From IMG/VR virus record IMGVR_UViG_3300020469_005303, positions 1 through 60,559 of that record: a DNA stretch of 60,559 bases; one strand, 5' to 3'. Each line of letters begins with the position of its first letter. Position 1 is the first letter of the stretch. This document shows, one piece after another, positions 2,588 to 53,624 of the stretch. The DNA is from a virus. The notes under the pieces were generated by a model. The model saw only the letters and a program-made list of their open reading frames with translations. It searched no databases and was not told the DNA's origin. A program made the position numbers and the translations under genes.

Positions 2588-2588
2588 T

Positions 2589-3431: not shown

Positions 3432-3475
3432 ATAACGCAATCCTTTTAAAAATTAAATGCTATATAACCTTTTAT

Positions 3476-3485
3476 AATAAGTATA
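3476..3485 (-). promoter_or_regulatory. Late-promoter-like motif TATACTTATT
   Basis: On the minus strand this reads TATACTTATT, nine of ten bases matching the motif variant TATACTTATA found before the 10636 gene. It lies 44 bases upstream of the sugar dehydrogenase ATG in a 67-base non-coding gap. It is a candidate start point for the 3431-to-1 transcript. The call rests on recurrence only. Confidence 0.35.
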
Positions 3486-3498
3486 AAGTAATCTTATT

Positions 3499-8685: not shown

Positions 8686-8734
8686 AATATCACAAAATGT
8701 GTATATTATATATATTAATGCGTTTATGTTTACA

Positions 8735-30054: not shown

Positions 30055-33000
30055 ATGACTGATATTTTACAACATACATTTGCATCTAAGTTTGACAGTG
30101 ATACTAACGTCATACGATCAAGTAGTATTGACTCGTCTGATTTTAATAAAATAAAAGATAGAGAAAATACGGGCGACTTATTTGGTGTAAATTCAAAAGA
30201 TGTTATAGAATTTTCTGCGTTTACACAAGACAACGAATTGGTTGGTTGGAAGACAATACAACAAACTCCAAATTATTCAACAAAAACAATATCTTACACA
30301 GATACATCCGGTGTAATTCAAAATAAAAATATATCATACTTGCAGTCGCTATATCCAAAAACAAGTGATGGTAATATATTGATATCACCTAAATATGAAC
30401 TAAGCCAACTAGGAATTGAGCAAGGAGAATATAAAGTTAGAATTGCATATCGAAATGATATCGTAGGTTCATTTGAAAATCCATATAAATTACAAATAAA
30501 AGAAATTTCTGCGTCAAGAACAGAAATAAAAGCAGTAACACAATCTTTTAAAAATTCTAGAAATCCAAATCAAATTTCATTTAACTTTGAGTATAGCAAC
30601 TTTTTAAACAAGCAAGTAATGGTTGCACATATAATTGAAAAACTCAGTAATATACTAAAAAACGAAACTTTTGTTTCTGAGTTAGATTCTAAAGAATTTT
30701 CCCAAAAAACTTCTGATTATTCATTTTATGTCAACAAGGCGTCCAAGTCATTTTCGTTAACGGAACTTGAAATATTGAAAGAACTCGATTCAATATATAA
30801 AAACTTAAAAGATACATACATGAGTTACTTGTATGGAAATTATAATGAAGTTTTCTCGCAAAACAAATTTTATACAGATTACATTAATTTAGTCGATTAT
30901 ACATTAAATACTTTTTCTAGATTCGTACAAGAAGAAAACACGGACATAAAACTTTTTTATAAATTTATGTTAATACAGATGTTTAATGAAACTGAACTAG
31001 ATAATTTATTTAAAAAAAGATTTGATACATATTTGCTTAATGGAATGAACTTCGGCAATGGCTTGTTTATTCCATTTTTAAAATACTCAAGTGTTAAAGA
31101 TGAAATGTTGTCTTCAAACTCGAATGATGTGTTACTAATAAAATTATTAAAACCACTTGACGAATCTATTACAGAGGATGTTAATTTTCATATATCACAA
31201 AATCCGTATTCCGATGATATAGTAAAAAGTATAATATTAAGATCAATTGTTGATAAGAGTTCAACAACATTTAAACTTAGAGGTCCTAGTTTATCAACAA
31301 AACTTACATCAAATGCAACAAAGAAATTTTCATTAAGTGACGAAGAAGAATCTAAGTTGCTTGAGGATGATACATCGAGTGCAGAAAACTATTTCAAGAC
31401 AACAAATACGGAAATAGAAAATCTGTATATAGATTACTCTGACTTTAAAAACTTTGTAAAATTTTCTTCTGCAAGAGCAAGACTAGATAATTTTGTTTTA
31501 AAACTTACAAACATATCTAAATTTAAATTTAAAATTCAGGAAGCAATACGGAAGATAAACAAACTAAACAGAGATGTAGCATCGGGATTTCTTAATTCAA
31601 CAGAGGCAAGCAGATCACTTGAGATACTCAAAAATGAAGACATCAAAAAATATAATGAGGGAATTGTCGAAATCTTTAAAACATTTACTCCTTATGATAA
31701 ATTTCTTTATTACGATAACGATAACGGTGCATGGCCACGTGAGACATCATTTAGTATAAATGGATTTACGGGTGCAGTAGATGGTGCAAATGGATTGTAT
31801 AAATTACACGCATCAAGAAAATACGACCTTGATAAAGTGTTTTTAAATGAAATAAACTCATCGTGGAAAATTATATGGGACTACACCGTTTCAAAGTGGA
31901 AGCTTTTCAATGAAGAATCTGACGTATTTATCTATTCAAACGGCGCCAATCTTAATTCGGGATTTACAGCCAATAATACTAATAATTCTGGATTTGGAGG
32001 CCAAAGTTCATTATTTAAAATAAATTTACTAGAAGAATATACAGAGGGAACTGCTATATTTCCACCAGAGTTAATACCACTTGATATAATAGAATTTCAA
32101 AAAAGTGATGGGTTTGCTTGGTATAAAGGAAAAGCAAGAGAAGCAGACTTATACGACAAGTATAATGACGAATCGTTGTATAATAGTATTCCAGAATTTT
32201 TAGTAAGAACAAATGAAAACGAAGAGTTTACTTTGTTTTTAGGAATGATTGGAGAACAATTTGACATACTTCATGTATATACAGAAAATATGACAGAGAT
32301 GTCCTACACTCGAAACTCATTTAAAAAAGGAATACCAAATCAATTAGTTTGGTTTGTTATGAATTCATTTGGAGTTAGATTATCCGGAAGAACATCGGAT
32401 CAACTTACAATTGGCAAGCAATTTGAAGAAAATCGTGACAAAGTATGGAGACGAGTCTTAAACAATTTGCCATATATATTAAAAACCGCCGGAACAGAGA
32501 ATTCGATAAGGGCATTATTTACTTGCTACGGAATTCCAGATCATTTATTTAAAATAAGAGAATACGGAGGAATCAACTATAACACCGACACAGATGAATC
32601 AGATGTAAACTTTAAAATAGATACATACGATTATTCATTACAAATAACCGATTCTGATCAGTATCTTGATATACCAGTTGATTTAGAAGAAGAAAATAAC
32701 ACAAAAGTTTCAATTGAGATGAAACTTAGTATAGGAAGTGAGTTCTTTCAAAATACACAAGAAACAATTATTTTTAATGAAGATACAAGTGAGAGATTGC
32801 CGTCAAATTTAGGCATGGGTGTAAATATTGAGAAATTATTGAATTCAGACGAAGACTATATAATAGGTTCTACAAAACCAATTTTTTATACTAAAGGTCA
32901 AACTCAAGAATCTTTTGTTCCTGATTCTTGGAAAGACGATGATTCTGTTATGGCACTTTCTTGGAAAAATTTCCGTGAAGGGGTTTCATTTTCGTACCCT

Positions 33001-36000
33001 AAAGTTAAATCTGGAACTGAACCTGCGTTCGTTACAATTTATTCAGACAGAGCAAAGAAAACTAAAGAAATAGTAAATGAACTTGGTCAAGTCGAATCAG
33101 TAGAGTATTACGACCCGTTATATACTCTAGCAGAAATTGGAGCACAAGACACATTAAACGGAGAAATAGTGAGATTATCATTTAGTTTTTCACAAGACGC
33201 AGAGATAACAAAGGGTGAATACAGGAACGATGACCATACACTAGACTTTAGATTCGAGGGAAGTCTTGAAGGAAACCACTATACTATAAGTGAACTAAAA
33301 CAAAATGGATACTTAAATAATAGTGGATTTTACTCTATTCTACAATCAAACAGAAATTGGGAGTTCGGAATATTCAGAGATGATAAATTTAAAGATAATT
33401 ACGGAAAATTTTATTTAAATTTTTATAATACAGATGGACTTATTTTATGTCCAAGTAAAATGTCTGATCCAATATATTTTGAGGATAATTTTGAGTATGA
33501 CATACTAATTAATTGTAAACAATCTGATGTAAATACTGACTCGGAAGTTACATTGTATGTTAAACGAGTATATGATTCCTCAGAAGTTTTTTCAAGTCAA
33601 GAAAATTTAGTAATTACAAAATATTCAGCAAATAATATTGTTAAAACAAAAAATTTGTATTTTGGAAATTACAACCAACAAACCCAATTTCGTGGTAGTA
33701 TTGATAAACTTAGAATATATAAAACTGACATTTCTGAAAAAAGATTTTTAGGTCATATCAATAATAATCAAGGATACGATATTGATAATTTTATTGAATT
33801 AGAAAATGTGCTTGTCACTAAAATTAATTTCGATCACCCATACTCATTAGTAGGATCAACGGGTGTCAGCTCTGAACCAGGTATTTTGAAAAACTATGCT
33901 TTAGTTAATAATAAACAAGATGTATTAGCATACAATTTCACCAATACAACATATCCATATCACTTCATTGGAAAAAACAGGACCGAGTTAAGTAACCTGC
34001 CATCAATGGCCGGAAAATCATTTACTAACAATAAAATAAGAATTGAAAACCAAACAAAAATAGCAGAACTAAATCCAAGAGCAAGATCAACAAAAAAATC
34101 AAATGATAGAAACAGCATTGATTCAAATACACTTGGTGTATATTTTAGTCCGACTGATATAGTTAATCAAGAAATTATTAGGTTTCTTGGTCAAATAAAT
34201 CTTGGTGAATTCATAGGAGACCCACAAGAAACATATAATTATTGCTACAAAAAATTTGAAAGTCTTCGTAAAATATTTTTTAAACACGGGTTTGGCAAAC
34301 TAGATATCCAAAAGTATTTCAATTTAATAAAATCATATATTGATCCATCTTTATTTGAAAATCTAGAAAAACTTGTTCCGGCACGTGCAAACTTAATTTC
34401 TGGATTATTAATAGAACCTTCTTTATTAGAAAGACATAAAATAATACCTCCTAGAATAAAATCATCTACTTGGATTGATTTAGACGGAAACAAAAGTGCA
34501 GATAAAGAAAAAATAACTGAAATTTTAAATGTTGATTTTAATGTGGGTTTGAAGGGTAATATTTCATCATTTGGAAACGAACGGCCTTACATTTCAAATA
34601 AAACTGGTGAATATAAATTGACACATGATTCGGATATAAAAGTTTTTAAAAATGATTCTGAGTTTACATTTAATTATAATTATTGCGGAAACCTGGTAGG
34701 AGAGGATATATCAGATACATCAAAAGATATATTCACAATACACGGAATAACTGAGCAAAAAGGAAAGTTGTTTAAAGTAGAAAAAATAAAAGAGCAAAAA
34801 AAGATAGGTGTTCAATATAATGGTAAACTTATAGATTACGATATATTTCTAAATGATGGAATACAGATATCTGGATTTACCAACGGAATGGAAACTGCAA
34901 ATGGAATATATGAGTTTAAATTTAAAGGTGCATCGGGTCTTCCTGTCTTTACAAATCAAAGTAGAATGTGGTGGGTTTTTTACTCAAGTTTTAAGAACAG
35001 ATGGATAATAGCGTCAGATAATACGGTAGATGGGGGTAAATACCTTGCATTAAATCGTAATAGAAATTACGAAAATTATACATGGATAAGTGGTAATAGG
35101 ATTGTAGATAGTAATACTAATACACCCGAGTGGTTTGGTACGGGTTTTAATAACTCATTAGAATCAGACAACCTTCCAGTACGAGATTTTGATTACTTTG
35201 GTCGTGTTAGTTTTATAGCAAAGTATGATAGGTTCATAGAATGTGAAGCATATATAAATGGATGGGTGAACGCAGAGTTATATGGAATTTATAAAGGTTC
35301 TTTCACAGAAAAATTTGTAACAGAAAATAACGAATTTGAGAATGTTAATAAACCAAAGAGTGATTATACATTTGATGGTGATAAAAGATATGTGTTTTTA
35401 AACGGAACATTTCGTGGGAAAATACAAAATGGATGGGTGGGGAGTGATAAAATTCAGCAAACCGATTCTGATAAAAATATAAGAATTGTTGGTTTCTTTG
35501 ATGGAAAAAATTATGAGTCATGTGATAAACCTTATTATACATCGGGTCTTATAAATTCATTAGTCAGTTTTGACAACCGTGATAAATTAGTATTTGATTT
35601 TAGAAATTATAACAGCAATAAAGTAAGATACACTACGAAAAACTTTGATAATATAAACTTAGTCAAAATTCCAGAAAAATTAAAGCATACAAACGATATT
35701 GATTTTAAATTTATCTCGGATTTTAATATAAAAAATCAAGGTATTTCTGATGTAAGTGATTTAAGCAGTGGTCAAATTAGAAAAAAGCATACAATTAAAA
35801 CAACAGATATATTTTATTCACCAAATGTATATAATGTGTCAGTAAAACATGATATAAGTTTAAATACAAATTCAATATTGAATATAAAATTTTTAGCTAA
35901 AAAAATTAAAATCAGAAAAAACACTTATAAATTAAATTTAAAAAATTCTAATATAAAATTCAATTTCTATAATGATGAATATAAAAACCTAGAAATTATA

Positions 36001-39000
36001 AGTAGGGGCAGTGATTTTCAACCGAGTTCTGTATATAACCAAAGTGGAGAAAAATTAAAAACTAACACACGAAGTCTTATACGTAATATTAGAGAAAGTA
36101 TAAAATATAAGCATAATGAAAAAAATCTAAATGAGTTTGAAAATAGTATAATAGGAAATCTTGATTATTGTCTAGTTTATGTTGGAGAGTCTATTGAAAA
36201 TTTTGATTTTATATTTTTAATACTGCTTGAATCGAGAAAAGAAATAAAGACAAATCTAAATTGTAAAAACTTCTTTCAGAATACAATAACTACAAAAAAA
36301 GATACAAAAACATTCTTCAAACCAACTCCAATGTTAGTTGAAAATATTCCATTGTTTGTAAAAAAAATTGAGATAGTAGAAAAAGGAAAAGGATACACCG
36401 GTGAGGAGTTAGTCGAAATATATGGAAACCGACCAAACAACTGGAAGTCATCGTGGCCACAAAAAATAAAAGCAAATAAGTTATTTAAAATAGATAATAT
36501 AACCGGAGAAATAACAAGTGTAAGGTCTGATAATTTTATGCTTACAGGAGATAACTGGTTGACAGATTCTACTATTACATTTAATGATACTCCAAAAATA
36601 AAAATTGATCCACCTATAATTGATAATAAATATTCAACACGTGAAAGTGCAAAATTTTATATAATAAGTGGTGATCCAACTCCAAGTGTTAGTGCAGATG
36701 TAACTCTTGAAAATTATGTTGATCTCGAACTAGGAGACACAATTGGTAAATCTTTAAACTCTGCAAATATGTATTTTGAAGGAAGAGACTTGGTAAAGTA
36801 TGACACGGGTTTAGTTCACACAAAAAAAATCAATATACAAACTTCAGAAAAAACTTCAAGCAGAAGACTCAATCCAACTGAGATTATAATGTTTTCAAAT
36901 GAATCAATCTTAGACTTTGAATTATATGTAGATAACAAAATAAAAGAAGTAATGAGGTCAGATATATGTGGAAATGAGACACCAATTTCATCTGACACAT
37001 ATGAGATTCAAATTACAAGTTTTTACGATGATGGAGACATTGATTATGGAATTTCTTATATTAAAAACAGAGAACTCGTAAATAACTTTTTTATAATATT
37101 AAATGAAGAAAAAAGTAATGAACTAAATTATCAATTAACTGATGAGCAATTTGTAAATAAAATATCTAAAGTAAATGAAAACAAGTATTCCGAGGGATAT
37201 GTAAGAATTAACGGTTTTACATCTAATCAATCATCAGCAAATGGCAATTACAGATTCAGGAACGATATATCTTATTGCGATAATTATGGATCATACAATG
37301 TACCGATTCCAACCTACACATCCGAAAACACAGAGTGGATACTTACATATGAAGAAAATATTAATAGATGGAAACTAAGAAATATTAAAAACTTCGATTT
37401 TATAGTATCAAATACAAAATACTTAGAAGATGGTTTTCTTGCGAATAAAGATAACAACCAAGGTTTTTACACAGGAAAAGAAGTAATAATAAACTCTGAA
37501 AACACCGTTGACCAAAATGGATTTGTATACAATTCATCTAATGACATTATCGGTAACAAGTTTCAAGAAGCAAATGTTTCAGTAAGTAACAGATTCAAAA
37601 TTGTCCCAAATAAACTTTTATTTAAACTTGAAAAAGAAAATTTTAATAACTTTCTGATTTGGAAAATAAATATTAAATCTAAAACAAACAATAAATTTGT
37701 TTATGAAATACCACTTGTGTATATAAATTCAGACGCAACAGATGAATCGTTCGTAGAAAAATATAATAATATAGAAAGTAAACTAAATACTCTTGATATT
37801 ACTCAATATCAAGAAACGAGTGCTTGTAATTTAAACTTTCAAAATGCAGTAGTTTGGAAAATAAAATCAACGAATGAACAAAGTGGTGAATTTTCAAATA
37901 GTAAAAAAATCTACACACAAGGTTTGACTTATTTAAATGCAACCTGGTTTTCAGATGATAAAGACTTATCAATGAGCGGTAGATATTCTTATGTTTTTGA
38001 CAAAATAACTAATGCGAGTAACTCACTAATTGAATTTTCCGAACTGACCAATCTTTGGAAAATTAAAACTATAAACAGAGAGAAAGCATTAATTATTAAT
38101 AATAATTATCCAAAATGTGGGGTATACAAAACAACGACAAAGAACATATATGGTATATGTGAATACGAAAAAATAGATGATGATATAGGGAGTGTTGCAA
38201 TTAAACTGAAAAATCTTACAGATGAATATGAAAGTGCAAATGGGTTATATTATATGTATGGATATTTAGAAACTGGTGAATACTTGTTTAGGAACAAAAA
38301 TTCACCTTGGTTATTTTTTACTCAAGATAATGGAATAACTTGGGAATTAAGAAATGACAGATTATATCCAACACTAAAAATAGTTCAATATAGTAAAATT
38401 GATCAAGTGGGTGTATATACAAATAAATCTGAAACACTCAAACTTTTTATAAATTTTGAATTAGATTTTAGTTTTGACAATAATCGTGATTTTCTAAATG
38501 TTAATATTGATTCACTAAAACTTACGAGTGACACAAATAAAATGTTAGTATATAACAAAACTGGTTACGAAAAAAATATTTCAGATGATTTTAATTTGTC
38601 TGTAAATCTTCAAGTAATCAATGCAGAGAAAACTACAAAGTATTGGTCCTCTATTCCTTGTAAAAATGATAAAAATATTAATGATTTTTACTTGCACAAT
38701 AATTTATTTTTAAAATCAGAAAGTGAATTACTAGTAGACACGGAATATAATAAATTTAAATTAAAACTTAATGTAGAAAAGTCAAAGCATATTCTTAGTA
38801 GTAGTGTAAATCAATTAATAGACTTAGAAGGTATGTCAAACGACAGACAGATTGTATTAGATAACTTTTATGATAATAGCTTTAAAACAGACATGGTATA
38901 TGCGATAGGATCAATAGTCCATTATAGTGACATCATGTGGGAGTGTATCAAAGAGACTCCAACAAACAGAAATGTAATACCTGGAGTCGATTTTGAAACA

Positions 39001-41139
39001 GGAAAATATTGGAAGATATTAAGTACAAACTATACTAAACTGAAAGTAACGTCTACAATAGATTTTAAAATAAAAAAATATAAGGATATTACAAATATAA
39101 ATCACCATGATTTTGATTTCTCTAGAGAATTTGTTAAAATCTTTAAATCACAAAATCAATTTACTAATGGGATATTTGATCAATTGAATTGTAATTCTGT
39201 CAAAAAATATTCTTTGGCCAAAGAATATTTACCTTTTGATATAGCACACATTGGTACGACAAAAAATATACTTACACACGGCCGCACAAAAACTCACACA
39301 GATTACGGATATAATAGAAATTTAGGTGTTTCTAGCAATAGTAGAGAAACAAGTGTTGATGACTCAGGATATGTTTGTCAAAAGCCTGCAATAGTAAGAA
39401 CATATAAAAAATCAGAAAACCGCAAAGAAGAATATAAAAAAGACTCCTTTTGGTTTAACGAAGACAAAAAGCATATTAGAAAAGAAGAACAAAGTCTTTT
39501 ATACGAACAACCAACACACCCACCTATTATATCATTTAGATTTGAGGACTACGACACATTACAAGATATTTCTTTAAACATTACGAACTTTAATTCTTCT
39601 CAAACGCAAGATGCTAATGGTGAATATACAAAAGTAAACAGCTCATATAATAACACATATGTATTTCAAAATGAAAATGGATATCACATATATAAGACTA
39701 AAGAATGTTGGGTTTTACAAAAATCAAATAAATTTAATGACTTAGAATTCTTAGAAGATGTTGATTATGAATATACAACGAGTAATTCAAAAAGAATTGA
39801 TGGTGAATTAAATGGTAACTTTGGATCAAGTTCTATTTTCTCATCTCAAACTGGATTAGTAGAAATTGTTTCAAATAATATAATTGAAAAAACTCCCACA
39901 CCAACACCCGAAAAAACTCCCACACCAACACCAACTCCAACTAAGTCAACACCACCGGATGAGTCTCCTGAAACACCTGAAAGTATAATTACTCCTTCAC
40001 CATCACCAAGCCCTACACCATCTAAATTAAGTGTAGAAAATACACCAACCCCAATAACAAAAACAGACACAATTGATCAATTCCTGTTTGAAAAAAATGA
40101 TTTGGCAATAACAACAAAAAAATACGATATGTCAAAAGATTCTCAATTGACAGAACTTCAAATAAAAGAAGACCTAGACGATCAGCAAATAATCATTTCG
40201 GGTATAATGACGGTTGAAGAACTACAAGAACGTGAGGATGTGTTATCAGAAATTCCACCCAATGCTAAGAACTTTGGAATAAAAGTAGCAAATTATACTA
40301 AAATGACAAGTAGTACGATTACGCAGAAAAGTGCTAACCAATACGGATGGGATTCAAGTGAGGTATATAAAAATGGAAAATTTAGAGCATTTTATATGTC
40401 AAAAAATCAATTGGGAAGTTTACACAAATATGATAATCAACACATTTTTGCCGATTATGGATATTATATTAAAAGTTGGATAGGTGCTCGTCATATTATA
40501 GTAAAAGTATTAAATCAAATTGATGCGGTCACCGAACTAACCGCAACAACAGGTTTACCCGAAGGAGTTTTACTTACATGGAAACCATCTTTTAATGCAG
40601 ACTATCTTAGAATAGAAGCAAGTGATCAAAACACCAACTCATGGATTACAATTGCAGATAACATTTCGCAAATAAGAGCAACATCTGGATACCTTGACAC
40701 ATCAATAGAAATGAACACAGAAAGAGAATACCGAGTAATTTCAGTTGGAGTGTCTGGAAAAGAAACAAAATCGGAAACAACATCTGGATGGAGATTGGGC
40801 ATACCGTCTGCACCCTCAAATTTAAACGTATCTTATGGAAAATTTTCAAATAAAATTGAGATTTCATGGAATGGTTCGGGTTTAACATCAAAATATAATA
40901 AAGTTGATAGTTATACAATCTTAAGATCAGAAACAAACCAGTTTGATGACTTTTCTGATTATACTGCTATAGCAAATAATCTGACAACAAATGACTATGT
41001 TGATACTTTTAATTTAGATACTGCGATAATATATTGGTATGTTATTGTTTCAAACAACGAAAAAACAAAAATACTAACAGAAAGTGAATTCAACCAAAAA
41101 ATCAACAGAACGAATTCAGTTGCTGGAAAAATATCTTAA
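30055..41139 (+). CDS. Giant baseplate/tail adhesin, 3694 aa
   Basis: AAAGG precedes the ATG. The N-terminal third looks like a gp7-type wedge protein: VWFVMNSFGVRLSG, then WRRVLNNLPYILKTAG and RALFTCYGIPDHL (about 762-841), and later ARANLISGLLIEPSLLE (about 1450). Inserted or appended are a SWKNFRE module (about 936-1083), a lectin/LamG-like domain (about 1096-1240, GSIDKLRIYKTDIS), several ANGxY modules (near 566, 1607, 2387, 2720 and 3175), a CBM5/12-like motif (about 2946-2990), a Pro/Thr linker (about 3279-3337), and two fibronectin III-like domains (about 3490-3676). It is probably a wedge protein carrying multiple sugar-binding appendages. Exact boundaries are approximate. Confidence 0.75.
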   Translation: MTDILQHTFASKFDSDTNVIRSSSIDSSDFNKIKDRENTGDLFGVNSKDVIEFSAFTQDNELVGWKTIQQTPNYSTKTISYTDTSGVIQNKNISYLQSLYPKTSDGNILISPKYELSQLGIEQGEYKVRIAYRNDIVGSFENPYKLQIKEISASRTEIKAVTQSFKNSRNPNQISFNFEYSNFLNKQVMVAHIIEKLSNILKNETFVSELDSKEFSQKTSDYSFYVNKASKSFSLTELEILKELDSIYKNLKDTYMSYLYGNYNEVFSQNKFYTDYINLVDYTLNTFSRFVQEENTDIKLFYKFMLIQMFNETELDNLFKKRFDTYLLNGMNFGNGLFIPFLKYSSVKDEMLSSNSNDVLLIKLLKPLDESITEDVNFHISQNPYSDDIVKSIILRSIVDKSSTTFKLRGPSLSTKLTSNATKKFSLSDEEESKLLEDDTSSAENYFKTTNTEIENLYIDYSDFKNFVKFSSARARLDNFVLKLTNISKFKFKIQEAIRKINKLNRDVASGFLNSTEASRSLEILKNEDIKKYNEGIVEIFKTFTPYDKFLYYDNDNGAWPRETSFSINGFTGAVDGANGLYKLHASRKYDLDKVFLNEINSSWKIIWDYTVSKWKLFNEESDVFIYSNGANLNSGFTANNTNNSGFGGQSSLFKINLLEEYTEGTAIFPPELIPLDIIEFQKSDGFAWYKGKAREADLYDKYNDESLYNSIPEFLVRTNENEEFTLFLGMIGEQFDILHVYTENMTEMSYTRNSFKKGIPNQLVWFVMNSFGVRLSGRTSDQLTIGKQFEENRDKVWRRVLNNLPYILKTAGTENSIRALFTCYGIPDHLFKIREYGGINYNTDTDESDVNFKIDTYDYSLQITDSDQYLDIPVDLEEENNTKVSIEMKLSIGSEFFQNTQETIIFNEDTSERLPSNLGMGVNIEKLLNSDEDYIIGSTKPIFYTKGQTQESFVPDSWKDDDSVMALSWKNFREGVSFSYPKVKSGTEPAFVTIYSDRAKKTKEIVNELGQVESVEYYDPLYTLAEIGAQDTLNGEIVRLSFSFSQDAEITKGEYRNDDHTLDFRFEGSLEGNHYTISELKQNGYLNNSGFYSILQSNRNWEFGIFRDDKFKDNYGKFYLNFYNTDGLILCPSKMSDPIYFEDNFEYDILINCKQSDVNTDSEVTLYVKRVYDSSEVFSSQENLVITKYSANNIVKTKNLYFGNYNQQTQFRGSIDKLRIYKTDISEKRFLGHINNNQGYDIDNFIELENVLVTKINFDHPYSLVGSTGVSSEPGILKNYALVNNKQDVLAYNFTNTTYPYHFIGKNRTELSNLPSMAGKSFTNNKIRIENQTKIAELNPRARSTKKSNDRNSIDSNTLGVYFSPTDIVNQEIIRFLGQINLGEFIGDPQETYNYCYKKFESLRKIFFKHGFGKLDIQKYFNLIKSYIDPSLFENLEKLVPARANLISGLLIEPSLLERHKIIPPRIKSSTWIDLDGNKSADKEKITEILNVDFNVGLKGNISSFGNERPYISNKTGEYKLTHDSDIKVFKNDSEFTFNYNYCGNLVGEDISDTSKDIFTIHGITEQKGKLFKVEKIKEQKKIGVQYNGKLIDYDIFLNDGIQISGFTNGMETANGIYEFKFKGASGLPVFTNQSRMWWVFYSSFKNRWIIASDNTVDGGKYLALNRNRNYENYTWISGNRIVDSNTNTPEWFGTGFNNSLESDNLPVRDFDYFGRVSFIAKYDRFIECEAYINGWVNAELYGIYKGSFTEKFVTENNEFENVNKPKSDYTFDGDKRYVFLNGTFRGKIQNGWVGSDKIQQTDSDKNIRIVGFFDGKNYESCDKPYYTSGLINSLVSFDNRDKLVFDFRNYNSNKVRYTTKNFDNINLVKIPEKLKHTNDIDFKFISDFNIKNQGISDVSDLSSGQIRKKHTIKTTDIFYSPNVYNVSVKHDISLNTNSILNIKFLAKKIKIRKNTYKLNLKNSNIKFNFYNDEYKNLEIISRGSDFQPSSVYNQSGEKLKTNTRSLIRNIRESIKYKHNEKNLNEFENSIIGNLDYCLVYVGESIENFDFIFLILLESRKEIKTNLNCKNFFQNTITTKKDTKTFFKPTPMLVENIPLFVKKIEIVEKGKGYTGEELVEIYGNRPNNWKSSWPQKIKANKLFKIDNITGEITSVRSDNFMLTGDNWLTDSTITFNDTPKIKIDPPIIDNKYSTRESAKFYIISGDPTPSVSADVTLENYVDLELGDTIGKSLNSANMYFEGRDLVKYDTGLVHTKKINIQTSEKTSSRRLNPTEIIMFSNESILDFELYVDNKIKEVMRSDICGNETPISSDTYEIQITSFYDDGDIDYGISYIKNRELVNNFFIILNEEKSNELNYQLTDEQFVNKISKVNENKYSEGYVRINGFTSNQSSANGNYRFRNDISYCDNYGSYNVPIPTYTSENTEWILTYEENINRWKLRNIKNFDFIVSNTKYLEDGFLANKDNNQGFYTGKEVIINSENTVDQNGFVYNSSNDIIGNKFQEANVSVSNRFKIVPNKLLFKLEKENFNNFLIWKINIKSKTNNKFVYEIPLVYINSDATDESFVEKYNNIESKLNTLDITQYQETSACNLNFQNAVVWKIKSTNEQSGEFSNSKKIYTQGLTYLNATWFSDDKDLSMSGRYSYVFDKITNASNSLIEFSELTNLWKIKTINREKALIINNNYPKCGVYKTTTKNIYGICEYEKIDDDIGSVAIKLKNLTDEYESANGLYYMYGYLETGEYLFRNKNSPWLFFTQDNGITWELRNDRLYPTLKIVQYSKIDQVGVYTNKSETLKLFINFELDFSFDNNRDFLNVNIDSLKLTSDTNKMLVYNKTGYEKNISDDFNLSVNLQVINAEKTTKYWSSIPCKNDKNINDFYLHNNLFLKSESELLVDTEYNKFKLKLNVEKSKHILSSSVNQLIDLEGMSNDRQIVLDNFYDNSFKTDMVYAIGSIVHYSDIMWECIKETPTNRNVIPGVDFETGKYWKILSTNYTKLKVTSTIDFKIKKYKDITNINHHDFDFSREFVKIFKSQNQFTNGIFDQLNCNSVKKYSLAKEYLPFDIAHIGTTKNILTHGRTKTHTDYGYNRNLGVSSNSRETSVDDSGYVCQKPAIVRTYKKSENRKEEYKKDSFWFNEDKKHIRKEEQSLLYEQPTHPPIISFRFEDYDTLQDISLNITNFNSSQTQDANGEYTKVNSSYNNTYVFQNENGYHIYKTKECWVLQKSNKFNDLEFLEDVDYEYTTSNSKRIDGELNGNFGSSSIFSSQTGLVEIVSNNIIEKTPTPTPEKTPTPTPTPTKSTPPDESPETPESIITPSPSPSPTPSKLSVENTPTPITKTDTIDQFLFEKNDLAITTKKYDMSKDSQLTELQIKEDLDDQQIIISGIMTVEELQEREDVLSEIPPNAKNFGIKVANYTKMTSSTITQKSANQYGWDSSEVYKNGKFRAFYMSKNQLGSLHKYDNQHIFADYGYYIKSWIGARHIIVKVLNQIDAVTELTATTGLPEGVLLTWKPSFNADYLRIEASDQNTNSWITIADNISQIRATSGYLDTSIEMNTEREYRVISVGVSGKETKSETTSGWRLGIPSAPSNLNVSYGKFSNKIEISWNGSGLTSKYNKVDSYTILRSETNQFDDFSDYTAIANNLTTNDYVDTFNLDTAIIYWYVIVSNNEKTKILTESEFNQKINRTNSVAGKIS
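32872..33309 (+). repeat. SWKNFRE module, copy in 3694-aa protein
   Basis: A single copy with core ALSWKNFREGVSFSYP, EPAFVTIYSDRA, EIGAQDTLNGEIVRL and EGNHYTISELK. It lies between the gp7-like core and the lectin-like domain. Confidence 0.85.
39889..40068 (+). repeat. Pro/Thr-rich linker in 3694-aa protein
   Basis: Encodes runs such as KTPTPTPEKTPTPTP and [11 protein letters not shown]. It resembles the repeat tail at 19642-19953 and separates the sugar-binding-like modules from the fibronectin III pair. Confidence 0.85.
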
Positions 41140-44225: not shown

Positions 44226-47200
44226 GTGATAAAAGTATTGAAATTATCAAATAAATCGGTAACACGATTTAAAACTAATAAAAAATGGAATTACAGTACA
44301 TTAGATTCTGGTAGTAATATTGTTCTTGAACAAGGTGATAACATTCCATTGTTTTCATCATCTATAAATAAATTGTCAACAGAACAAAATAATTCAGAAT
44401 TTAAATTGAATTTGCGTGTCGGAAAAAAAGTAACAGGCACATTTTTTTCCAAAGATAGTAAATACTTTAATGCAGAGAAAGAACCTCTTAATTATGACGG
44501 ATCATACCAACGAGTCGTATACAACAGCATCAAGCATTTATTCTATAACGACTATGGAACAGTCGGAGATATAGAAAATGATTCGTATTACAAAAATCCG
44601 ATAAATATTTTCGGTAGTGAGACCGGAATATATTCTCCTCAAAATTTCAGTTCAAAAACACTAGAAGTAGACAAACGAAGTGAACGAAGAGTAATGTCAG
44701 ATGAAGTAACTGTTTTGGAAATTCCAGCTAATGTATTTGGAGAAAAAATAAAACCTGGTACATTAAAAATAATAGATCACAGTTCTGAATTCGAGTCAAT
44801 AGAGATTGTTGATGACGGAAACACTAATTTAATAGTAGGTACGAATTCATTCAATAACATTTCAGAATTAAACTTAAATTCTTTTTTTAATTCAATATCA
44901 GAAACATCCTCTGTTGATCAAAAGATAAATATTGATTACACAGATTTGTCGTATGGATATGAAGTAGATTCACACGGAGATTTTTTACTTTCAGGTGCAC
45001 CTACATTATCGACATCAATTTCGGAAAATCAATCAGGCCGTGCATCTTTACATAAATTCAATCCAATTTCAAAAAAACATGAATTAGTAAAAAACTTTTA
45101 TTGTCCATTTACACAAAATGGACTTGCACACGAAAATAGAAACGATAATTGTCAATTTATAATTACAGAACTTGAAGATGTAATTTCAACAGAGAATTTT
45201 TTAGTTAATGACGATTTCGGAAAATCTGTTTCAATAAATGAGTCAATATGTGCAATAGGTTCACCTAAATCTCATATCAACGGCAGAAATAATGATCAAC
45301 CCACTGGTCATATATTTATTTACGAAAAAAATAAAGGTGGTAAAGAAAATTGGGGAATAATTAATGTTTTTGAAGGAACACCAGATTCAGACTTTGGAGA
45401 ATCTATATCAACCGATGGTGACTTTATAGCAGTAGGTTCTCCTAATTTTGAAAATGGAGTAGGATGTGTTTATGTATTTAAAAAAACAAAAAGAACAAAA
45501 GAACATCCGTGGATTAAAACTTCGTCTGTTTATGATTCTTATCAGTGGAATGATGTGCTATCAAAATACGAAGGAACTCCAACTCAAGATACAGAAGAGT
45601 ATTCTAAATATTTAAAAGACAGAGATGGAATTATTTCCAGGAGAATTTCAAAGACGATAAAAGAGTTAAAAAAACTTCTAAACACAGGTGTGATTTCTGA
45701 CATTGAGTATATAAATGCTATACCGACCAAGGATGATTACAGCGAAGTTTATCCTTACAATTATCTGTACACAGACAATGTAGAAGAGTGTGAAGATAAA
45801 AGTAATTGGTATAATCAAAAAATTTGGAGCAAAAATACACACCCGGCAACGAGATGTAAATTCGCAGAAGATGAAAAGCATTACAAGAAATCTAGTTGGC
45901 CTGGATATATGACTGATGAAAAAACAGATTTATATATACCAAATCCGGCACATGAACAAAATAAAGATAATAAATGGGCTTATAGATGGAAACTGCAAAA
46001 TGTAGTTGGAAATGCGGAGGATATTAACCTATTTGGTGACAATGATGATTGTGAATTAGATAACCTGTCTATGTTTTCCAATTCAAATTTAAATTCGTTT
46101 GGAGATGATAGTGGGTTTCCACTCACAGAGTACTCAGAAACGCCGAAAGAATCAATAGGTGATACAACTTATGATTTAATTGGTACTATTAAATCACCTG
46201 ATTTGAGTTCTAAGCGTTTTGGAGAGAAGGTGGTAATAAAAGGAAACAAATTGTATGCTTCAACCCACACAACAGATTTTCCTAGATGTTATATGTTTGT
46301 TAAAACAACAAATGAACACGGTTGCGAAGTATGGGAATTAAAAAATACAATATCAGAAACAGAATTGATAGGTCATACAAATAATTCAATGATAGACGAG
46401 AGTGTATTACACTCGGTAGAATTAAATCATTATGATACCTATTTTGATATTAAAATATGTCCATCCGTTTCGTCCACATCAGACTCAACAGGAATCCCTA
46501 CATTCAATAAATGGATTTATAGTTTTGATCAACCAATATTAAGTTCGGAAAATAAAATACTAGGAGGTACGCGGGTCGATGCGTGTGATTCTATTTGTAA
46601 AGATTATAATTCCTACAAATACTATTCAAGATTTTCTAAAATAAAAGAAAAGCAGGCTGCACAAATTCCTGCCAACTATGGTGAGCAAATAAACTTACCA
46701 ATGTTAAATGACAAAGCGAAGTTTTTTAGCAAGGCGGAATTTGCAGACTCTTTTTACCATCCTTCTGACAATTCCATTGGCATTTCTTGGAAAAATGCAA
46801 GAGAAAATGTATCGTTTGCGTATACTAATGTTACACCTGGTAACTTTCCCAATTTCATGACAATTTATTCAAATGAAGCAAAGCAATCTGACGGAACGTA
46901 TGATCCATTACATACATTAATAGAAATAGGAGGACACGAAACCTTAAATAACCAACTTGTTAGATTGATAATTGACAGTGAACGTGGGAACACAGAGCAT
47001 TTTTATGAATTTATTTATCGTGGTTCAATAGAGGGAACACATTATACACTAAATGAACTTAAAGAAAAAATTGAATACGAATGCACACTTCCACCAAATA
47101 AAGGAGTATACACCACGATAGCAAACGAATTATTTATAGACGGTTTAGGAAACAAACAAAACGCAAAATTATTTTCTAAAGGTGAAAATGACCTTCAATA

Positions 47201-50200
47201 TTCAGAACCTTGGAGTGAAGAAAACACGATGAAGTTATCGTGGAAAAACTTTAGAGAAGATGTCTCATTTTCTTATCCAATGGTAAAAAGAGGAAAAGAT
47301 ATTTCTATAATGAGAATTTATTCAAATGAAGCCAAGAATTTAGATGGTTCGTATAATGCTCTGAATATTATAGCAGAAGTTCATGCGAATGAGACTTTAA
47401 ATAATTCAAAAGTAAGACTGACATTAAATACTGGATTTGTAAACGGTGATGAATACTATTATGAATTTTTGTATCGTGGTTCAAAAAATGGTAAAAATTA
47501 TACATTAAATGAATTAAAAGAATCATACGATTATGATTGCACTCTACCACCAAATCAAGGCGAATATGTAGAGATACCTTCTGAAAAATTTATAGACCCT
47601 TTAAATTACACAACTTCGGCCAAATTATATTACAAGAGTGAAGATACACATTCTTATATTGAACCTTGGAGTGAAGACGATGCCATAGGGTTGTCATGGA
47701 AAAATTTCAGAGAAAATGTATCATTTTCATATCCTTCTGTAAAACGAGGAAGACTACCTTCTTTTATGGCAATTTATGCAAATGAAGCAAAACAAGATGA
47801 CGGTACATTTGATCCTAGATACATATTAGCAGAAATAGGAGCACAAGAAACATTAAATGGGGAAACTGTAAGACTTACTTTTAACACGGGTTTTGTTGGT
47901 GGAGATGAATATTTTTATGAATTTATTTATCGTGGGTCAATTGAAGGTACGCATTATACTCTGAATGAACTTAAGAATTTAATAGATAAAGATTATGCAG
48001 AAACCACTACCAATTCCGGACTAATACGTTATATTAAAGACTACGAAAATCTTAATATATTTAAGAAATGTAGATTGCCAAAATTTTATTCGAAAAAAGA
48101 AAACCAACTTTCCTATGTAGAGCCTTATTCTTCTGATGAAACGCAGGCAATATCGTGGAAAAACTTTAGAGAAAATGTCTCATTTTCATATCCTCAAATT
48201 GCATCTGGTTCTGAACCAAGTTTTATGACAATATATTCAAACGGTGCCAAGAGAATAGATGGATCTTATGACCCAATTTTTACACTTGCAGAGATTGGTG
48301 CATCTGACGCACTAAATGGAAAGTTAGTAAAACTTTTAATTTATGCAGACAATTGTAAGAATGATAAAACACAAGTATACGAATTTTTGTATAAAGGTTC
48401 AATAGAAGGTACTCATTTTACATTGAGTGAATTGAGAAATAAGTACGATTATGAATGTACTCTACCACCAAACTTGGGTATACCAGTCTTATTAAATAAA
48501 ATCAATGAAAATGCCGAAGAAGATAATCTACTATTCAGTAAAGCAGATGGAGGACTATCATATACAGAACCATATTCATCTGATGATGCTATTGCATTGT
48601 CATGGAAAAATTTCAGAGAAAATGTATCATTTTCGTATCCATCCGTAAAACGAGGAAATCATCCGTGTTTCATGGCAATTTATTCAAATGAAGCAAAGCA
48701 AACTGATGGAACATATGATCCTTCACATATATTAGCAGAAATAGGAGCACAAGAAACATTAAACGGAGAAACAGTAAGACTTACTTTTAATACAGGTTTT
48801 GTTGGAGGGGATGAATACTTTTATGAGTTTATTTATCGTGGATCAATTGAAGGCACACATTATACTTTGAATGAACTGAAAAATTTTATAGAATTTGATT
48901 GTACATTACCTCCAAACATGGGTGGTTTTGTATCATTATCTGATAAAGAATTTCTTGATCCACTGGATAACAAATTAAATGCCAAGTTTTTCTCAAAAGG
49001 AGAAGGTGGTCTTTCATATTCAGAACCTTGGTTTGGTGATGATATAATTAATATTTCGTGGAAAAATATTAGAGAGAATGTATCGTTTTCTTATCCATCC
49101 GTAAAAAAAGGTACATCACCAAACACTATGGCCATTTATGCAAATGAAGCAAAACAAGATGATGGAACATATGATCCTTTATACACACTTGCCGAAATAG
49201 GAGCACAAGAAACATTAAACGGAGAAACCGTAAGACTTACTTTTAATACGGGTTTTGTTGGAGGAGACGAATACTTTTATGAGTTTATTTACCACGGTTC
49301 ACTTCAAGGCACACATTATACAATAAATGAATTAAAAGAAACAATTGACTATGAGTGCATACTATCACCAAATCAAGGAGAGTATGTATCTTTATCAAAA
49401 ATAAATTTTGATGATTATTTATTAAATTCAGACAAAGCAAAGTTTTTTACGAAAATAAAAAATCAAGCTGCATTTAAACAAAACGAGAATAAAGATGAAG
49501 TGTCAATAAGTTGGAAGAACTTCAGAGAAAATGTTTCGTTTTCTTATCCAAGTGTAAAATCAGGTGTAGAACCAAGTTTTATGACGATATATGCAAACGG
49601 TGCGAAAAACAAAAAAGGTGATTATGATCCAATAAAAACACTAGCAGAAATTGGTGCAGAAGATACTTTAAATGGAAACGTGGTCAAATTAACATTTAAC
49701 CAAGGTTCAGTAAATGATGATGAATTCTTTTATGAATTTATTTACGATGGAAGTTTAGCGGGTACACACTACACACTTAATGAGCTTATGGAAAATAACT
49801 TATTGAAAAAAGTTGAGTCAACCACGCACATACAAAAAAGTAAATCTAATATAAACAATAGATTTTATGTTGAAAACTTAAATAGTATACAAATAGAAAC
49901 ATTACAAAAAAAATACACAAACTATCTAACAAGTAATGTAAATTCAAAAATCAAAAAAATTAAATCATTCGGTGAATTACCAGCAAATAGTGGTCATGAA
50001 GAAATAGTAAGAATACAGATAGATGATGATATATTACAATCGCAAAATCAAATAAAATTTTATAGTCAAAACAATTATTCTGCACATTCTGAAAATAGTA
50101 ATCTCGAAAACGAAATTGAAATTCATTGGAAATATTTCAGAGAGGGGGTGAGTTTTTACTATCCATCTATAAGAAAAAACGATACAAATGAAACTAATTC

Positions 50201-53200
50201 ATGTATGCGTTTATACATGGATCATGATAATAAAAATGGTTACGATAAAAATAAAATTATTGCTGAGATAAAGACAAGTAGTTCACTGAATGGAGAGATT
50301 GTGCGATTGAATTTAGTATCAAATACTAATAAAGAAATTTTTTATGAATTTTTATTTGACGGTACGAGTATTGGAACAGAGTATACTCTAAGTGAACTAA
50401 GTGAAAAGGTTTCTCCTAATTTGTCAAAACCACTAATAATTAACTCACCTGACTTAGAAAATTGTAAAATAAGAATTGATAAAGATAAAATATCTAACGG
50501 ATTACATAAACTTTATATATTACTAATTGATTCTGACAACCAACCAATAGGTACAGAGTCAATGATAGAAATGTATAATAATCCAATTGTATACAATCTA
50601 GAACCTAGACGAAATTTAGTCAAAAAGTCTTATACATATTCCGCAAATACAAAATCCGAATTCGGTAAAGGGATAGGTGCATCAGATAAATATTTTGTAG
50701 TAGGAAATCCATCTGATCGTAAATATTATGTAGACCAAACAACTTCATATACTGCCGGAAGTGCGTTCGTTTTTCGTGTAAATGAAACTAACTTGGATTT
50801 TCTTGAAAAGATATACGGAGAGGATACATCAGAAAATAATTTTAGCTCTGCATTTGGTAATGATGTCTCTGTACTTGGAAGTAATTTTTTGGTAGGAAGT
50901 CATTCAAAAGAAATGACAACTATTAATTTAAATGAAAGTGGAAATGCAAAAAAACTTGATATTGAAGATTTAGAATTTGGAGCAACCAAGTACGCAGATG
51001 AAATTTACCATACAAATGAAGCTCTTATTACCGATTATGAAATTGATCTAAATAGTAAAATAGGTGATGCGGTTGTCAAAGTAAAAATAGACGATTTAAA
51101 TATCAATAGGTTATTGATAAATGAAATGACACTTAAAGCAAACTTTATTGATACTGGTAATGAAACACTCAGAGTACATGGTGTGACAGGAGAAAACACA
51201 GAAGATATTAATGGAATATACAGACTAGTCAAATCCCCAATTAATATTGACTTTGGGTGTGATATTGATACTAATTTACAAACAAGAGTTTATATAAATA
51301 AAAATAATTGGTCTGTATTTTATGACAAATTACGCACTTGTTGGGTTTTAACAGACAAACCAAATATATCTGTTGAATATGAAATACCTTGTAATTGGAA
51401 TTCTGTTTTGGAAACATTTGAAAGAATAAATTTAATCAGTGAATTTAATCTTTTGACAGAGGAAATGTTAACAAGTGCGATCCAATTGTATAATGTAAGC
51501 AATCAAGATATAATAAGTAAGTGGAAATTATTAACTCAAACTAAAATACCAACGATATCTGTAAGTTATGCTAATTTAATAAGAGAACTTGAGTCAATAA
51601 GTAAACTAAAATTAAATCCACAATTGATTGAAGAAATATTTTATTTATACAGCTCAAATTCAAGAAAAAGAATATCTACAAGTATTTTGAAAAGATGGAA
51701 AGATTCGGAAAGCAACTTAGGTATGCTACCTTTTATATACGAACTTGATTCTGTAAATCCAATTTCATTAAACTTTAGTTTACTTGTAAAAACATTGGAT
51801 ATATATAAACTTAAAGATTACGAAATATTAAAATCATGGTCAGTCAAACTTGGGTATAATCACCTGTTGGGAGACTTGCTAAGAGAAATTAGACCTTCAT
51901 ATCATGATAGGTTATCTATATATAATTTACGATTGTTGACAAAAATTGCAACTGATTTTATAAGTCAACGTAAATACAGTACGATAACGACACAAACTGA
52001 TGACTGTCCAGAGGTAGAAAATTTTATTTTGACAGAAGAAGAACTAGGTCAATATGGAAAAAAGTGGAAACCTAATGTTGATCGTGGGTTTTTATTAAGT
52101 GATGTATTCAAGGATATAAATAAAAATGTGAATATTAATTTTGCAATTTCAAACGAGACATCGGATGAAGATATGCCAAGAAGTTTTATGTCTGGTGTTG
52201 GGTTGCTCGAAGACAAAGATATCAAAATTAATTCAAATAACGATACAATAGGAGAGCATTCTTCACTTACATGGGGAATCTATCGTGACAAAACAGAAAT
52301 AGTAGGAAATTATATACATTTTTACGTAAATATTCTACCTGATGTAGAATTGGATAGTACATTGGTTTTTGTATACAATTCAATTAAATCAGCAATCAAC
52401 GGATATGTGTATTATTATTCTATTAATAATGATACGAATAAATGTAGAAAAATCAAGAGAATGAAAACAAATAAAACAAAATATTCTTGTAAAAAGCAAT
52501 ATGGTCATTCTGTAAGTTTAAGCAAGAATTTTATTTCAGTTGGTTCTCCTGTACTTGGTAACTTCAACATTGATGAAATATCTACGTTCGGAGGACGTTC
52601 GGTTGTTTCGTTTGGAGATTCTGAAAAGCTATTTATTGAATATAATGTCATACCACCGACTCTCATAAACGATTTCAGTAAAAAAATAGTTGGGTCTATA
52701 ATTTCGTATGACCATGCAGCCATATTAGATAATAAAAGTCAATTTATAGGTAATGTATTTTATAAGAACGGTGTTATTGCTCTAACAGATAGAACTGGTT
52801 ATTTTTCCGAGTTGTTAAGTAATAGTGGAACATCAGGATTTGAGTTAGAATTTAAATCAATGCATACTTTATATGAAAACGAAATACTATGTAAAGTTGA
52901 ACCACATGAATTTAACTTTAGTACCAATCCTACATCTGTTCAATCGGGACAAATTTCATACGATATAAATCAAGATGGTAAATTTGACATAATTGATGCG
53001 TCCTACATATTTAAATACATAATGGGTGAGGTAGGTGATATAGAAATTACAGATGATGAAATAATTGAAAATGAAACATCAATAAAATTGTCTGCAAAAA
53101 ATAAATGGCCCAAACAAGACTTATTAATGACAGAATCTGAAGATGTATTGTTAATGGATTTATTTTTTAATTCAGATATAATTGAAAATCGACCAACACA

Positions 53201-53624
53201 TGAAAAAGTTATTTCAAATTTAAAACAAAAATATGAGAATGGAGAGTTCGATATAAATGGTGACGGAAAAACCGATGAAGTTGATGCAAATTTATTATTA
53301 AGATACTTCGTGGGAAGACGAGGTACATATTTAACAAGAGACTTAGTTAGTAAATATGATAATTCAACACGAAGTGATGCAAATACGATAATTAAATTTT
53401 TAGATGAAAAAACAGGTAAGAATTTAGGAAGAGAAATATTAAAAGATTTTCAAGACTTTTCTGAAAATGACAAACAAGATTCTACTGGAAGTTATCTTGC
53501 TCCTTATGCAACAACAATTGGATTATATAGTGGATTAGAACTTGCAATGGTTGCAAAATTAGGGAAGCCTGTTAAAATACTTCCAAACTATCCTATAAAC
53601 TTTTTAATAAAATTTGATAATTAA
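44226..53624 (+). CDS. Giant modular adhesin, 3132 aa
   Basis: The start is GTG at 44226. Domains in order: FG-GAP/integrin-like beta-propeller repeats (about 243-425 and 660-710, for example DFGESISTDGDFIAVGSP); eight SWKNFRE modules (about 822-2064); further FG-GAP-like repeats (about 2137-2235 and 2756-2790); an ANGxY-like module (about 2316-2392); two dockerin-like calcium loops (D2913-D2924 and D3009-D3020); and a C-terminal TTIGLY/VAKLGKP motif shared with the 472-residue protein. It is probably a long calcium-stabilised tail adhesin that recognises surface glycans or proteins. The architecture is visible; the ligand is unknown. Confidence 0.75.
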   Translation: MIKVLKLSNKSVTRFKTNKKWNYSTLDSGSNIVLEQGDNIPLFSSSINKLSTEQNNSEFKLNLRVGKKVTGTFFSKDSKYFNAEKEPLNYDGSYQRVVYNSIKHLFYNDYGTVGDIENDSYYKNPINIFGSETGIYSPQNFSSKTLEVDKRSERRVMSDEVTVLEIPANVFGEKIKPGTLKIIDHSSEFESIEIVDDGNTNLIVGTNSFNNISELNLNSFFNSISETSSVDQKINIDYTDLSYGYEVDSHGDFLLSGAPTLSTSISENQSGRASLHKFNPISKKHELVKNFYCPFTQNGLAHENRNDNCQFIITELEDVISTENFLVNDDFGKSVSINESICAIGSPKSHINGRNNDQPTGHIFIYEKNKGGKENWGIINVFEGTPDSDFGESISTDGDFIAVGSPNFENGVGCVYVFKKTKRTKEHPWIKTSSVYDSYQWNDVLSKYEGTPTQDTEEYSKYLKDRDGIISRRISKTIKELKKLLNTGVISDIEYINAIPTKDDYSEVYPYNYLYTDNVEECEDKSNWYNQKIWSKNTHPATRCKFAEDEKHYKKSSWPGYMTDEKTDLYIPNPAHEQNKDNKWAYRWKLQNVVGNAEDINLFGDNDDCELDNLSMFSNSNLNSFGDDSGFPLTEYSETPKESIGDTTYDLIGTIKSPDLSSKRFGEKVVIKGNKLYASTHTTDFPRCYMFVKTTNEHGCEVWELKNTISETELIGHTNNSMIDESVLHSVELNHYDTYFDIKICPSVSSTSDSTGIPTFNKWIYSFDQPILSSENKILGGTRVDACDSICKDYNSYKYYSRFSKIKEKQAAQIPANYGEQINLPMLNDKAKFFSKAEFADSFYHPSDNSIGISWKNARENVSFAYTNVTPGNFPNFMTIYSNEAKQSDGTYDPLHTLIEIGGHETLNNQLVRLIIDSERGNTEHFYEFIYRGSIEGTHYTLNELKEKIEYECTLPPNKGVYTTIANELFIDGLGNKQNAKLFSKGENDLQYSEPWSEENTMKLSWKNFREDVSFSYPMVKRGKDISIMRIYSNEAKNLDGSYNALNIIAEVHANETLNNSKVRLTLNTGFVNGDEYYYEFLYRGSKNGKNYTLNELKESYDYDCTLPPNQGEYVEIPSEKFIDPLNYTTSAKLYYKSEDTHSYIEPWSEDDAIGLSWKNFRENVSFSYPSVKRGRLPSFMAIYANEAKQDDGTFDPRYILAEIGAQETLNGETVRLTFNTGFVGGDEYFYEFIYRGSIEGTHYTLNELKNLIDKDYAETTTNSGLIRYIKDYENLNIFKKCRLPKFYSKKENQLSYVEPYSSDETQAISWKNFRENVSFSYPQIASGSEPSFMTIYSNGAKRIDGSYDPIFTLAEIGASDALNGKLVKLLIYADNCKNDKTQVYEFLYKGSIEGTHFTLSELRNKYDYECTLPPNLGIPVLLNKINENAEEDNLLFSKADGGLSYTEPYSSDDAIALSWKNFRENVSFSYPSVKRGNHPCFMAIYSNEAKQTDGTYDPSHILAEIGAQETLNGETVRLTFNTGFVGGDEYFYEFIYRGSIEGTHYTLNELKNFIEFDCTLPPNMGGFVSLSDKEFLDPLDNKLNAKFFSKGEGGLSYSEPWFGDDIINISWKNIRENVSFSYPSVKKGTSPNTMAIYANEAKQDDGTYDPLYTLAEIGAQETLNGETVRLTFNTGFVGGDEYFYEFIYHGSLQGTHYTINELKETIDYECILSPNQGEYVSLSKINFDDYLLNSDKAKFFTKIKNQAAFKQNENKDEVSISWKNFRENVSFSYPSVKSGVEPSFMTIYANGAKNKKGDYDPIKTLAEIGAEDTLNGNVVKLTFNQGSVNDDEFFYEFIYDGSLAGTHYTLNELMENNLLKKVESTTHIQKSKSNINNRFYVENLNSIQIETLQKKYTNYLTSNVNSKIKKIKSFGELPANSGHEEIVRIQIDDDILQSQNQIKFYSQNNYSAHSENSNLENEIEIHWKYFREGVSFYYPSIRKNDTNETNSCMRLYMDHDNKNGYDKNKIIAEIKTSSSLNGEIVRLNLVSNTNKEIFYEFLFDGTSIGTEYTLSELSEKVSPNLSKPLIINSPDLENCKIRIDKDKISNGLHKLYILLIDSDNQPIGTESMIEMYNNPIVYNLEPRRNLVKKSYTYSANTKSEFGKGIGASDKYFVVGNPSDRKYYVDQTTSYTAGSAFVFRVNETNLDFLEKIYGEDTSENNFSSAFGNDVSVLGSNFLVGSHSKEMTTINLNESGNAKKLDIEDLEFGATKYADEIYHTNEALITDYEIDLNSKIGDAVVKVKIDDLNINRLLINEMTLKANFIDTGNETLRVHGVTGENTEDINGIYRLVKSPINIDFGCDIDTNLQTRVYINKNNWSVFYDKLRTCWVLTDKPNISVEYEIPCNWNSVLETFERINLISEFNLLTEEMLTSAIQLYNVSNQDIISKWKLLTQTKIPTISVSYANLIRELESISKLKLNPQLIEEIFYLYSSNSRKRISTSILKRWKDSESNLGMLPFIYELDSVNPISLNFSLLVKTLDIYKLKDYEILKSWSVKLGYNHLLGDLLREIRPSYHDRLSIYNLRLLTKIATDFISQRKYSTITTQTDDCPEVENFILTEEELGQYGKKWKPNVDRGFLLSDVFKDINKNVNINFAISNETSDEDMPRSFMSGVGLLEDKDIKINSNNDTIGEHSSLTWGIYRDKTEIVGNYIHFYVNILPDVELDSTLVFVYNSIKSAINGYVYYYSINNDTNKCRKIKRMKTNKTKYSCKKQYGHSVSLSKNFISVGSPVLGNFNIDEISTFGGRSVVSFGDSEKLFIEYNVIPPTLINDFSKKIVGSIISYDHAAILDNKSQFIGNVFYKNGVIALTDRTGYFSELLSNSGTSGFELEFKSMHTLYENEILCKVEPHEFNFSTNPTSVQSGQISYDINQDGKFDIIDASYIFKYIMGEVGDIEITDDEIIENETSIKLSAKNKWPKQDLLMTESEDVLLMDLFFNSDIIENRPTHEKVISNLKQKYENGEFDINGDGKTDEVDANLLLRYFVGRRGTYLTRDLVSKYDNSTRSDANTIIKFLDEKTGKNLGREILKDFQDFSENDKQDSTGSYLAPYATTIGLYSGLELAMVAKLGKPVKILPNYPINFLIKFDN
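46690..50420 (+). repeat. Eight-copy SWKNFRE module array
   Basis: Eight units of about 140-205 residues (boundaries near 46690, 47101, 47561, 48020, 48479, 48923, 49379 and 49994). Core elements are SWKNFRENVSFSYP, FMTIYANEAK, DPxxTLAEIGA, TLNGETVRLTFN and YEFIYRGSIEGTHYTLNELK. Most units end in YECTLPPNxG, which joins them. Units 3 and 5 share about 50 identical residues but differ at roughly fourteen silent positions. Confidence 0.92.
52962..53285 (+). other. Dockerin-like calcium-binding pair
   Basis: Two loops, DINQDGKFDIID (residues 2913-2924) and DINGDGKTDEVD (3009-3020), each followed by a hydrophobic helix and a glycine (FKYIMGE, LRYFVGR). They match the DxNxDGxxDxxD calcium loop of type I dockerins. 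The spacing of 96 residues is longer than the usual 30-35, so they may be two half-dockerins or generic calcium loops. Confidence 0.7.

Follow-up and report, generated by a model that had tools for sequence, protein, structure and literature searches.

Why should one protein module occur eight times over in a single very long viral protein and once each in two others of the same genome, and does its distribution say which of those proteins work together? The question is raised by a 60,559-base IMG/VR virus record (IMGVR_UViG_3300020469_005303), analysed here over its full length, called the window below, and probably a fragment of a larger genome. It carries genes for baseplate wedge proteins, namely a gp25-like one (25856..26242, plus strand) and a gp6-like one (26244..28214, plus strand) that served as gene-order anchors, together with PhoH, primase and SbcCD-like genes. 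By gp6 its nearest cultured relatives are Microcystis phage Mel-JY01, a 484-kb phage, and Flavobacterium immuto phages, at 36-42% identity, and the viruses that bear the module belong to a large assemblage of aquatic, T4-like phages, marine as well as freshwater.

The three proteins concerned, all encoded on the plus strand, are denoted P1 (3132 aa, 44226..53624), P2 (3694 aa, 30055..41139) and P3 (740 aa, 14108..16330). P2 lies beside the gp25 and gp6 genes, and P1 is the fourth gene downstream of P2; immuto shows this order too. Because P2 is coded beside these baseplate genes, P1 and P2 can reasonably be taken as virion proteins; for P3 the same assignment is a weaker one. Elsewhere in the window, the 412-aa protein that follows gp6 (28214-29452) resembles the Disaggr_repeat family at a score below threshold (E 1.5e-4), and the minus strand of 1634-9964, with glycosyltransferase, UDP-glucose dehydrogenase-like and DHH phosphoesterase genes, looks like a sugar-modification cluster.

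A module shared by three proteins

A profile built from the ten copies of the SWKNFRE module, here termed A, picks out ten sites and no others in the window record, all without stops and with E-values from 7e-72 to 1.7e-52: eight in P1 (46686-50441), one in P2 (32848-33309) and one in P3 (15866-16294), with 33-72% identity to the third P1 copy. The initial annotation had counted eight, one and one copies over proteins of 3132, 3694 and 740 residues, exactly as the profile finds them, and had put the unit at about 140 residues and the array at 46690-50420. The recurrence of the unit stands and its length does not, since alignment of the upstream sequence shows a true unit of ~150-170 aa that starts at an upstream P.N.G motif; the array is where it was placed, with a slightly larger extent (46659 to 50432). 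A P.N.G-type motif lies near the start of every copy except the fourth of P1, the single P2 and P3 copies included, and is degenerate in P3 and in the most distant copies.

Within P1 the array covers aa 812-2069 (46659..50432, plus strand). By profile and alignment its copies occupy, in order, 46659..47093, 47082..47549, 47538..47999, 47997..48467, 48456..48911, 48900..49364, 49353..49808 and 49971..50432, all on the plus strand; units 1 to 7 abut with a period of 149-153 aa, and the eighth, the most divergent, follows after a step of 205 aa. In IMG/VR, module A was found at 36 loci with 104 copies (some overlap between loci being counted), always in orthologues of P1, P2 and P3: eight, six or five copies in complete P1s, and one each in P2 and P3. 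Two loci have reduced arrays of five and six copies (L009 and L010), in P1s ~48-50% identical to that of the window. Module A was not found in cultured phages (INPHARED), its relatives being confined to IMG/VR contigs, and no relative was detected in GTDB genomes with the patterns used; a bacterial origin of the module was rejected on the latter result.

Sites of the module in P1, P2 and P3

P1 combines FG-GAP repeats, the A array, dockerin-like motifs and a conserved C-terminal core, through which its orthologues were found. These orthologues fall into A-array, B-array (see below) and array-free classes, and no internal repeats were seen in the array-free ones checked. Seven FG-GAP motifs, of beta-propeller type, were located with a regular expression over the orthologues and by reading the window sequence, so that their numbering is sequence-based only; the FG-GAP_2 profile scores above its cut-off in the window (1.8e-10) and in relatives (2.8e-19 and 4.4e-18). 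The A array falls between the fourth motif (aa 665) and the fifth (aa 2146). Near the C-terminus, at aa ~2890-3030, stand two dockerin-type calcium-loop motifs some 100 residues apart (Dockerin_1, E 9e-8), between which the P1s of the B clade and of some module-free relatives have a LysM match (E 4e-7 to 6e-10).

P2, the baseplate-adjacent protein, has homologues in immuto (gp109) and in Mel-JY01, and one loop of its LamG-like domain is interrupted by the A module (32791..33321, plus strand), as judged from the profile and from the empty site in relatives. With the module left out, the flanks give a weak LamG match (PF13385, E 4.3e-4, 20.9 bits, below the cut-off of 27.6). In the Mel-JY01 homologue the flanking domain is uninterrupted, and the immuto P2 is without it. 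A module-deleted P2 query aligns in one piece with module-free relatives, over 380-432 residues, and about 40 further P2 loci match a profile of the module-cut region nearly full length and uninterrupted; roughly 20 more, mostly distant or truncated, gave partial matches and were left unscored. The P2 family in which the modules sit is very common in IMG/VR: its NNLPYILKTxGTE region is widespread in aquatic phage contigs (at least 574 confirmed stretches), and P2 length runs from ~1340 to 3800 aa among loci L185-L263. A 318-aa protein adjoining P2 (41084-42040) is itself a LamG protein, clearly passing the cut-off (Laminin_G_3, PF13385, E 8.3e-12). In P3 the module lies at the C-terminus (15803..16303, plus strand), identified by profile and alignment and by the clade that P3 copies form in the module tree.

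A second module and matched states of P1 and P2

Some relatives have, in the same loop of the P2 LamG-like domain, a different module, B, of ~100 aa (~113 aa in the P2 loop of contig G025). Four records carry it in both proteins: G025 (loci L030, L076 and L082) has one copy in P2 and five in P1, G029 one and six, and G036 and G037 one and five; two of the four are identical in P2. Two loci, L207 and L208, likewise have B in the P2 loop, and a further scan for the module returned only an already known contig. In P1 the B array lies between FG-GAP motifs 3 and 4, with a single B between motifs 6 and 7, and thus elsewhere than the A array (4-5). Profile comparison finds A and B unrelated (hhalign 1%), and a distant kinship between the two was rejected accordingly; B has no match by sequence in Pfam or PDB.

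As far as the sequences go, a genome has A in both P1 and P2, B in both, or neither. The first state occurs in eight (the window, G001, G002, G003, G005, G007, G008 and G009), the second in the four just named, and the third in 17 (G032-G034 and G039-G052), several of them near-identical; in G004, A is present in P2 and in a P1 that is incomplete. No mixed state was found among genomes with both genes on one record. Since many of these genomes are near-identical, independence was counted on a species tree of the P2 backbone, built with the modules cut out, in which A forms one clade (99/100) and B another (100/99), so that two changes are needed. The three matched states without a mixed genome thus imply at least two independent matched gains, and it is these two that the apparent coupling of P1 with P2 amounts to. 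That both modules are absent, or both replaced, together suggests that P1 and P2 depend on one another. P3 stands apart: G025, a member of the B clade, has an A-bearing P3 encoded on one contig with its B-bearing P1 and P2, which means that the three proteins need not all carry one module type.

Descent and selection

A tree of 72 copies of module A, made by a quick method, unrooted and with SH-aLRT support only, places the 15 P3 copies in one clade (99) that spans A-bearing, B-bearing and array-free phages, and the P1 and P2 copies in the other (99). Within the P1 set the P2 copies form a group of their own (90), close to P1 positions 1 and 4; most A-clade genomes share orthologous copies at positions 1, 4, 7 and 8, and the middle positions are less resolved. 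The P3 copy is thus the oldest visible one, and module A in P3 is older than, and independent of, the modules of P1 and P2. Concerted evolution of the array is unsupported by this tree, though the middle copies are poorly resolved in it.

Pairwise dN/dS in the modules is ~0.05-0.2, similar to or modestly above that of the rest of each gene, comparisons with saturated dS having been left out. Array positions are mostly inherited vertically under purifying selection, and the P3 clade, the nested P2 clade and the orthologous P1 positions together point to an old copying event, or two of them, with vertical descent ever since. The initial annotation had proposed exchange between genes and a common ligand-binding or assembly role in all three proteins. 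Exchange is borne out as one or two rare, old copying events and not as an ongoing process; a common role finds support for P1 and P2 in their matched gains, and fails to extend to P3, which keeps A within the B clade.

What the modules may do

The reading that we tentatively prefer, at a probability of roughly 0.45, is that the modules of P1 and P2 are displayed domains that contact a host-surface ligand, and that the module type spread by copying between genes. P1 and P2 would be parts of the same large baseplate-anchored appendage, from whose scaffolds the modules would project, out of the LamG loop in P2 and out of a loop between propeller blades in P1. Each would make weak, repeated contacts with the ligand, probably a glycan, and the P1 array together with the P2 copy would provide avidity; a lineage that acquired a new contact module would then have spread it to both proteins by inter-gene copying. 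Pointing this way are the dockerin and LysM matches of P1, families that in other proteins are carbohydrate- or cell-wall-related, the placement of the array between FG-GAP motifs, and its position-stable, BACON-like organisation. The same reading draws on the agreement of P1 and P2 states in every genome with both genes, the two gains on the tree, the lack of kinship between A and B, the uninterrupted LamG site of Mel-JY01 and of most scored P2 homologues, the nesting of the P2 copies and the low dN/dS. Counting against host contact are the lack of any lectin or adhesin fold match for module A in PDB or BFVD, and the lack of any sign of diversifying selection in the usable dN/dS comparisons, where a receptor-binding tip would often show it. 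With two independent gains only, the matching may also be a coincidence or the product of neutral copying; the matched types would fit a physical P1-P2 contact, or plain copying from gene to gene, equally well.

It is possible, if rather unlikely, that the modules are instead matched assembly parts, the P2 module packing on one or more P1 modules so that the same family is needed in both and the two switch together, and the array setting the length or geometry of the appendage. Such packing would fit the A/A, B/B and none/none pattern with no mixed genome, the two independent matched gains, the nearness of the P2 copy to P1 positions 1 and 4, and the orthology of several array positions across genomes under purifying selection. 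Yet relatives with neither module are abundant, so that an interface between P1 and P2 modules is not essential; moreover, copy number varies (5, 6 or 8), and P3 carries A on its own. Somewhat doubtful too is the idea of a matched "key" domain, by which the P2 loop and the P1 array must bear the same family, in lineage-specific sets A or B. If true, the match would serve either to hold P1 to P2 or to direct the appendage to a particular host surface, and would amount to a code of compatibility between virion proteins at the level of domains.

Neutral or nearly neutral copying is unlikely. By this account a P1 insert was copied by recombination into a tolerant P2 loop in the ancestor of each clade, matching merely reflects where donor sequence was available, and the modules are spacers or decoration. 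The derivation of the P2 copy from within the P1 copies agrees with it, as do the small number of events, two only, and the location of both sites at places that tolerate inserts, namely loops of other domains or the stretches between their motifs. However, dN/dS is well below 1 in all usable comparisons, the modules have been retained over deep divergence (P2 is ~48% identical within the A clade), the inserts are present in all members of the A and B clades seen, and no P1-only intermediates were found.

Fold and affinities of module A

AlphaFold2 models the core of module A (P1 copy 3) with a pLDDT of 85.3 and a pTM of 0.80; inclusion of the upstream segment improves the model, the full unit (P1 copy 6) reaching 91.6 and 0.86. 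The module is thus predicted to be a compact, mostly beta domain, the full-unit model having nine strands of at least three residues along with short helical turns. The module had been described as matching no named domain that could be recognised, and it kept that status when the ten-copy profile was searched and the fold of a unit predicted: there was no match above chance in Pfam, NCBIfam, PHROGs or PDB sequences, none in INPHARED, and no well-described named domain emerged. Three marginal hits were set aside. Pfam Nop5_56-rel_N_Arc on P1 (27.9 bits, cut-off 27.8) is summed over the repeats with no single stretch passing (best E on single A copies, 0.12); PHROG_32329 (E 0.007-0.008) matches only two of 62 module A copies; and a transketolase match to the profile (E 0.006, 52 residues) was taken as chance.

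That module A is a known family, whether Ig-like, BACON, FN3 or another beta-sandwich, diverged past detection by sequence would be compatible with any of the functional readings and is suggested by the mostly beta prediction and by the best, non-significant PDB fold matches, nearly all to Ig-type or GAE beta-sandwiches, but is improbable: despite a confident model, Foldseek returned no match at E <= 0.001 (core and full-unit models against PDB, core model against BFVD), the best PDB match of the full unit reached only E 0.066 and TM 0.16, PDB and BFVD matches had TM-scores of ~0.3 or lower and rmsd mostly above 10 A, and Pfam and NCBIfam gave nothing.

Comparison with known systems

Among the nearest cultured relatives, immuto has the gene order of the window (gp25, gp6, two small genes, P2, three genes, P1). 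Both immuto and Mel-JY01 have P2 homologues, with a LamG-like domain free of any insert in Mel-JY01 and no such domain in immuto, and the P1 C-terminal core matches immuto gp105; neither phage has module A or B. The closest analogues of module A are the BACON arrays of crAssphage and the Ig-like domains of phages.

In crAss-like phages, a tail-associated protein carries the small BACON domains (PF13004) in tandem arrays whose positions each form a clade of their own, and such arrays arose more than once in phages (de Jonge et al. 2019, PMC6949934). The P1 array resembles them in its tandem layout, its eight, six or five copies, its position-specific clades and the repeated origin of such arrays, a shared organisation that is not proof of kinship; PF13004 was not among the listed matches for 62 A and 13 B copies (hmmscan, permissive E-values). 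Unlike the BACON arrays, that of P1 lies inside an FG-GAP protein and has a counterpart in the single copy of another protein, and no bacterial relatives of module A were found. Phage structural proteins of several classes carry Ig-like domains as accessories, according to the account of Fraser et al. (2006) cited in PMC9022992, and the Ig-like domain of the YSD1 tail tube protein is inserted between strands of its host domain (PMC9022992). Contact with the host surface has been proposed for both BACON arrays and phage Ig-like domains (PMC6949934; PMC9022992). Module A is like the latter in being an accessory domain on several structural proteins, inserted within a host domain, and differs in that neither its sequence nor, at a significant level, its fold matches Ig, FN3 or Big. 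We know of no description, for phage Ig-like domains, of a matched module type in two proteins of one genome.

Accessory domains scattered or arrayed on phage structural proteins are thus of a kind already known. As far as our searches reach, the families A and B and their matched presence in two proteins are new; they enlarge the known repertoire of T4-like phages, marine and freshwater, by two domain families not described before, and the matched A/A, B/B, none/none pattern yields a testable prediction of which virion proteins work together.
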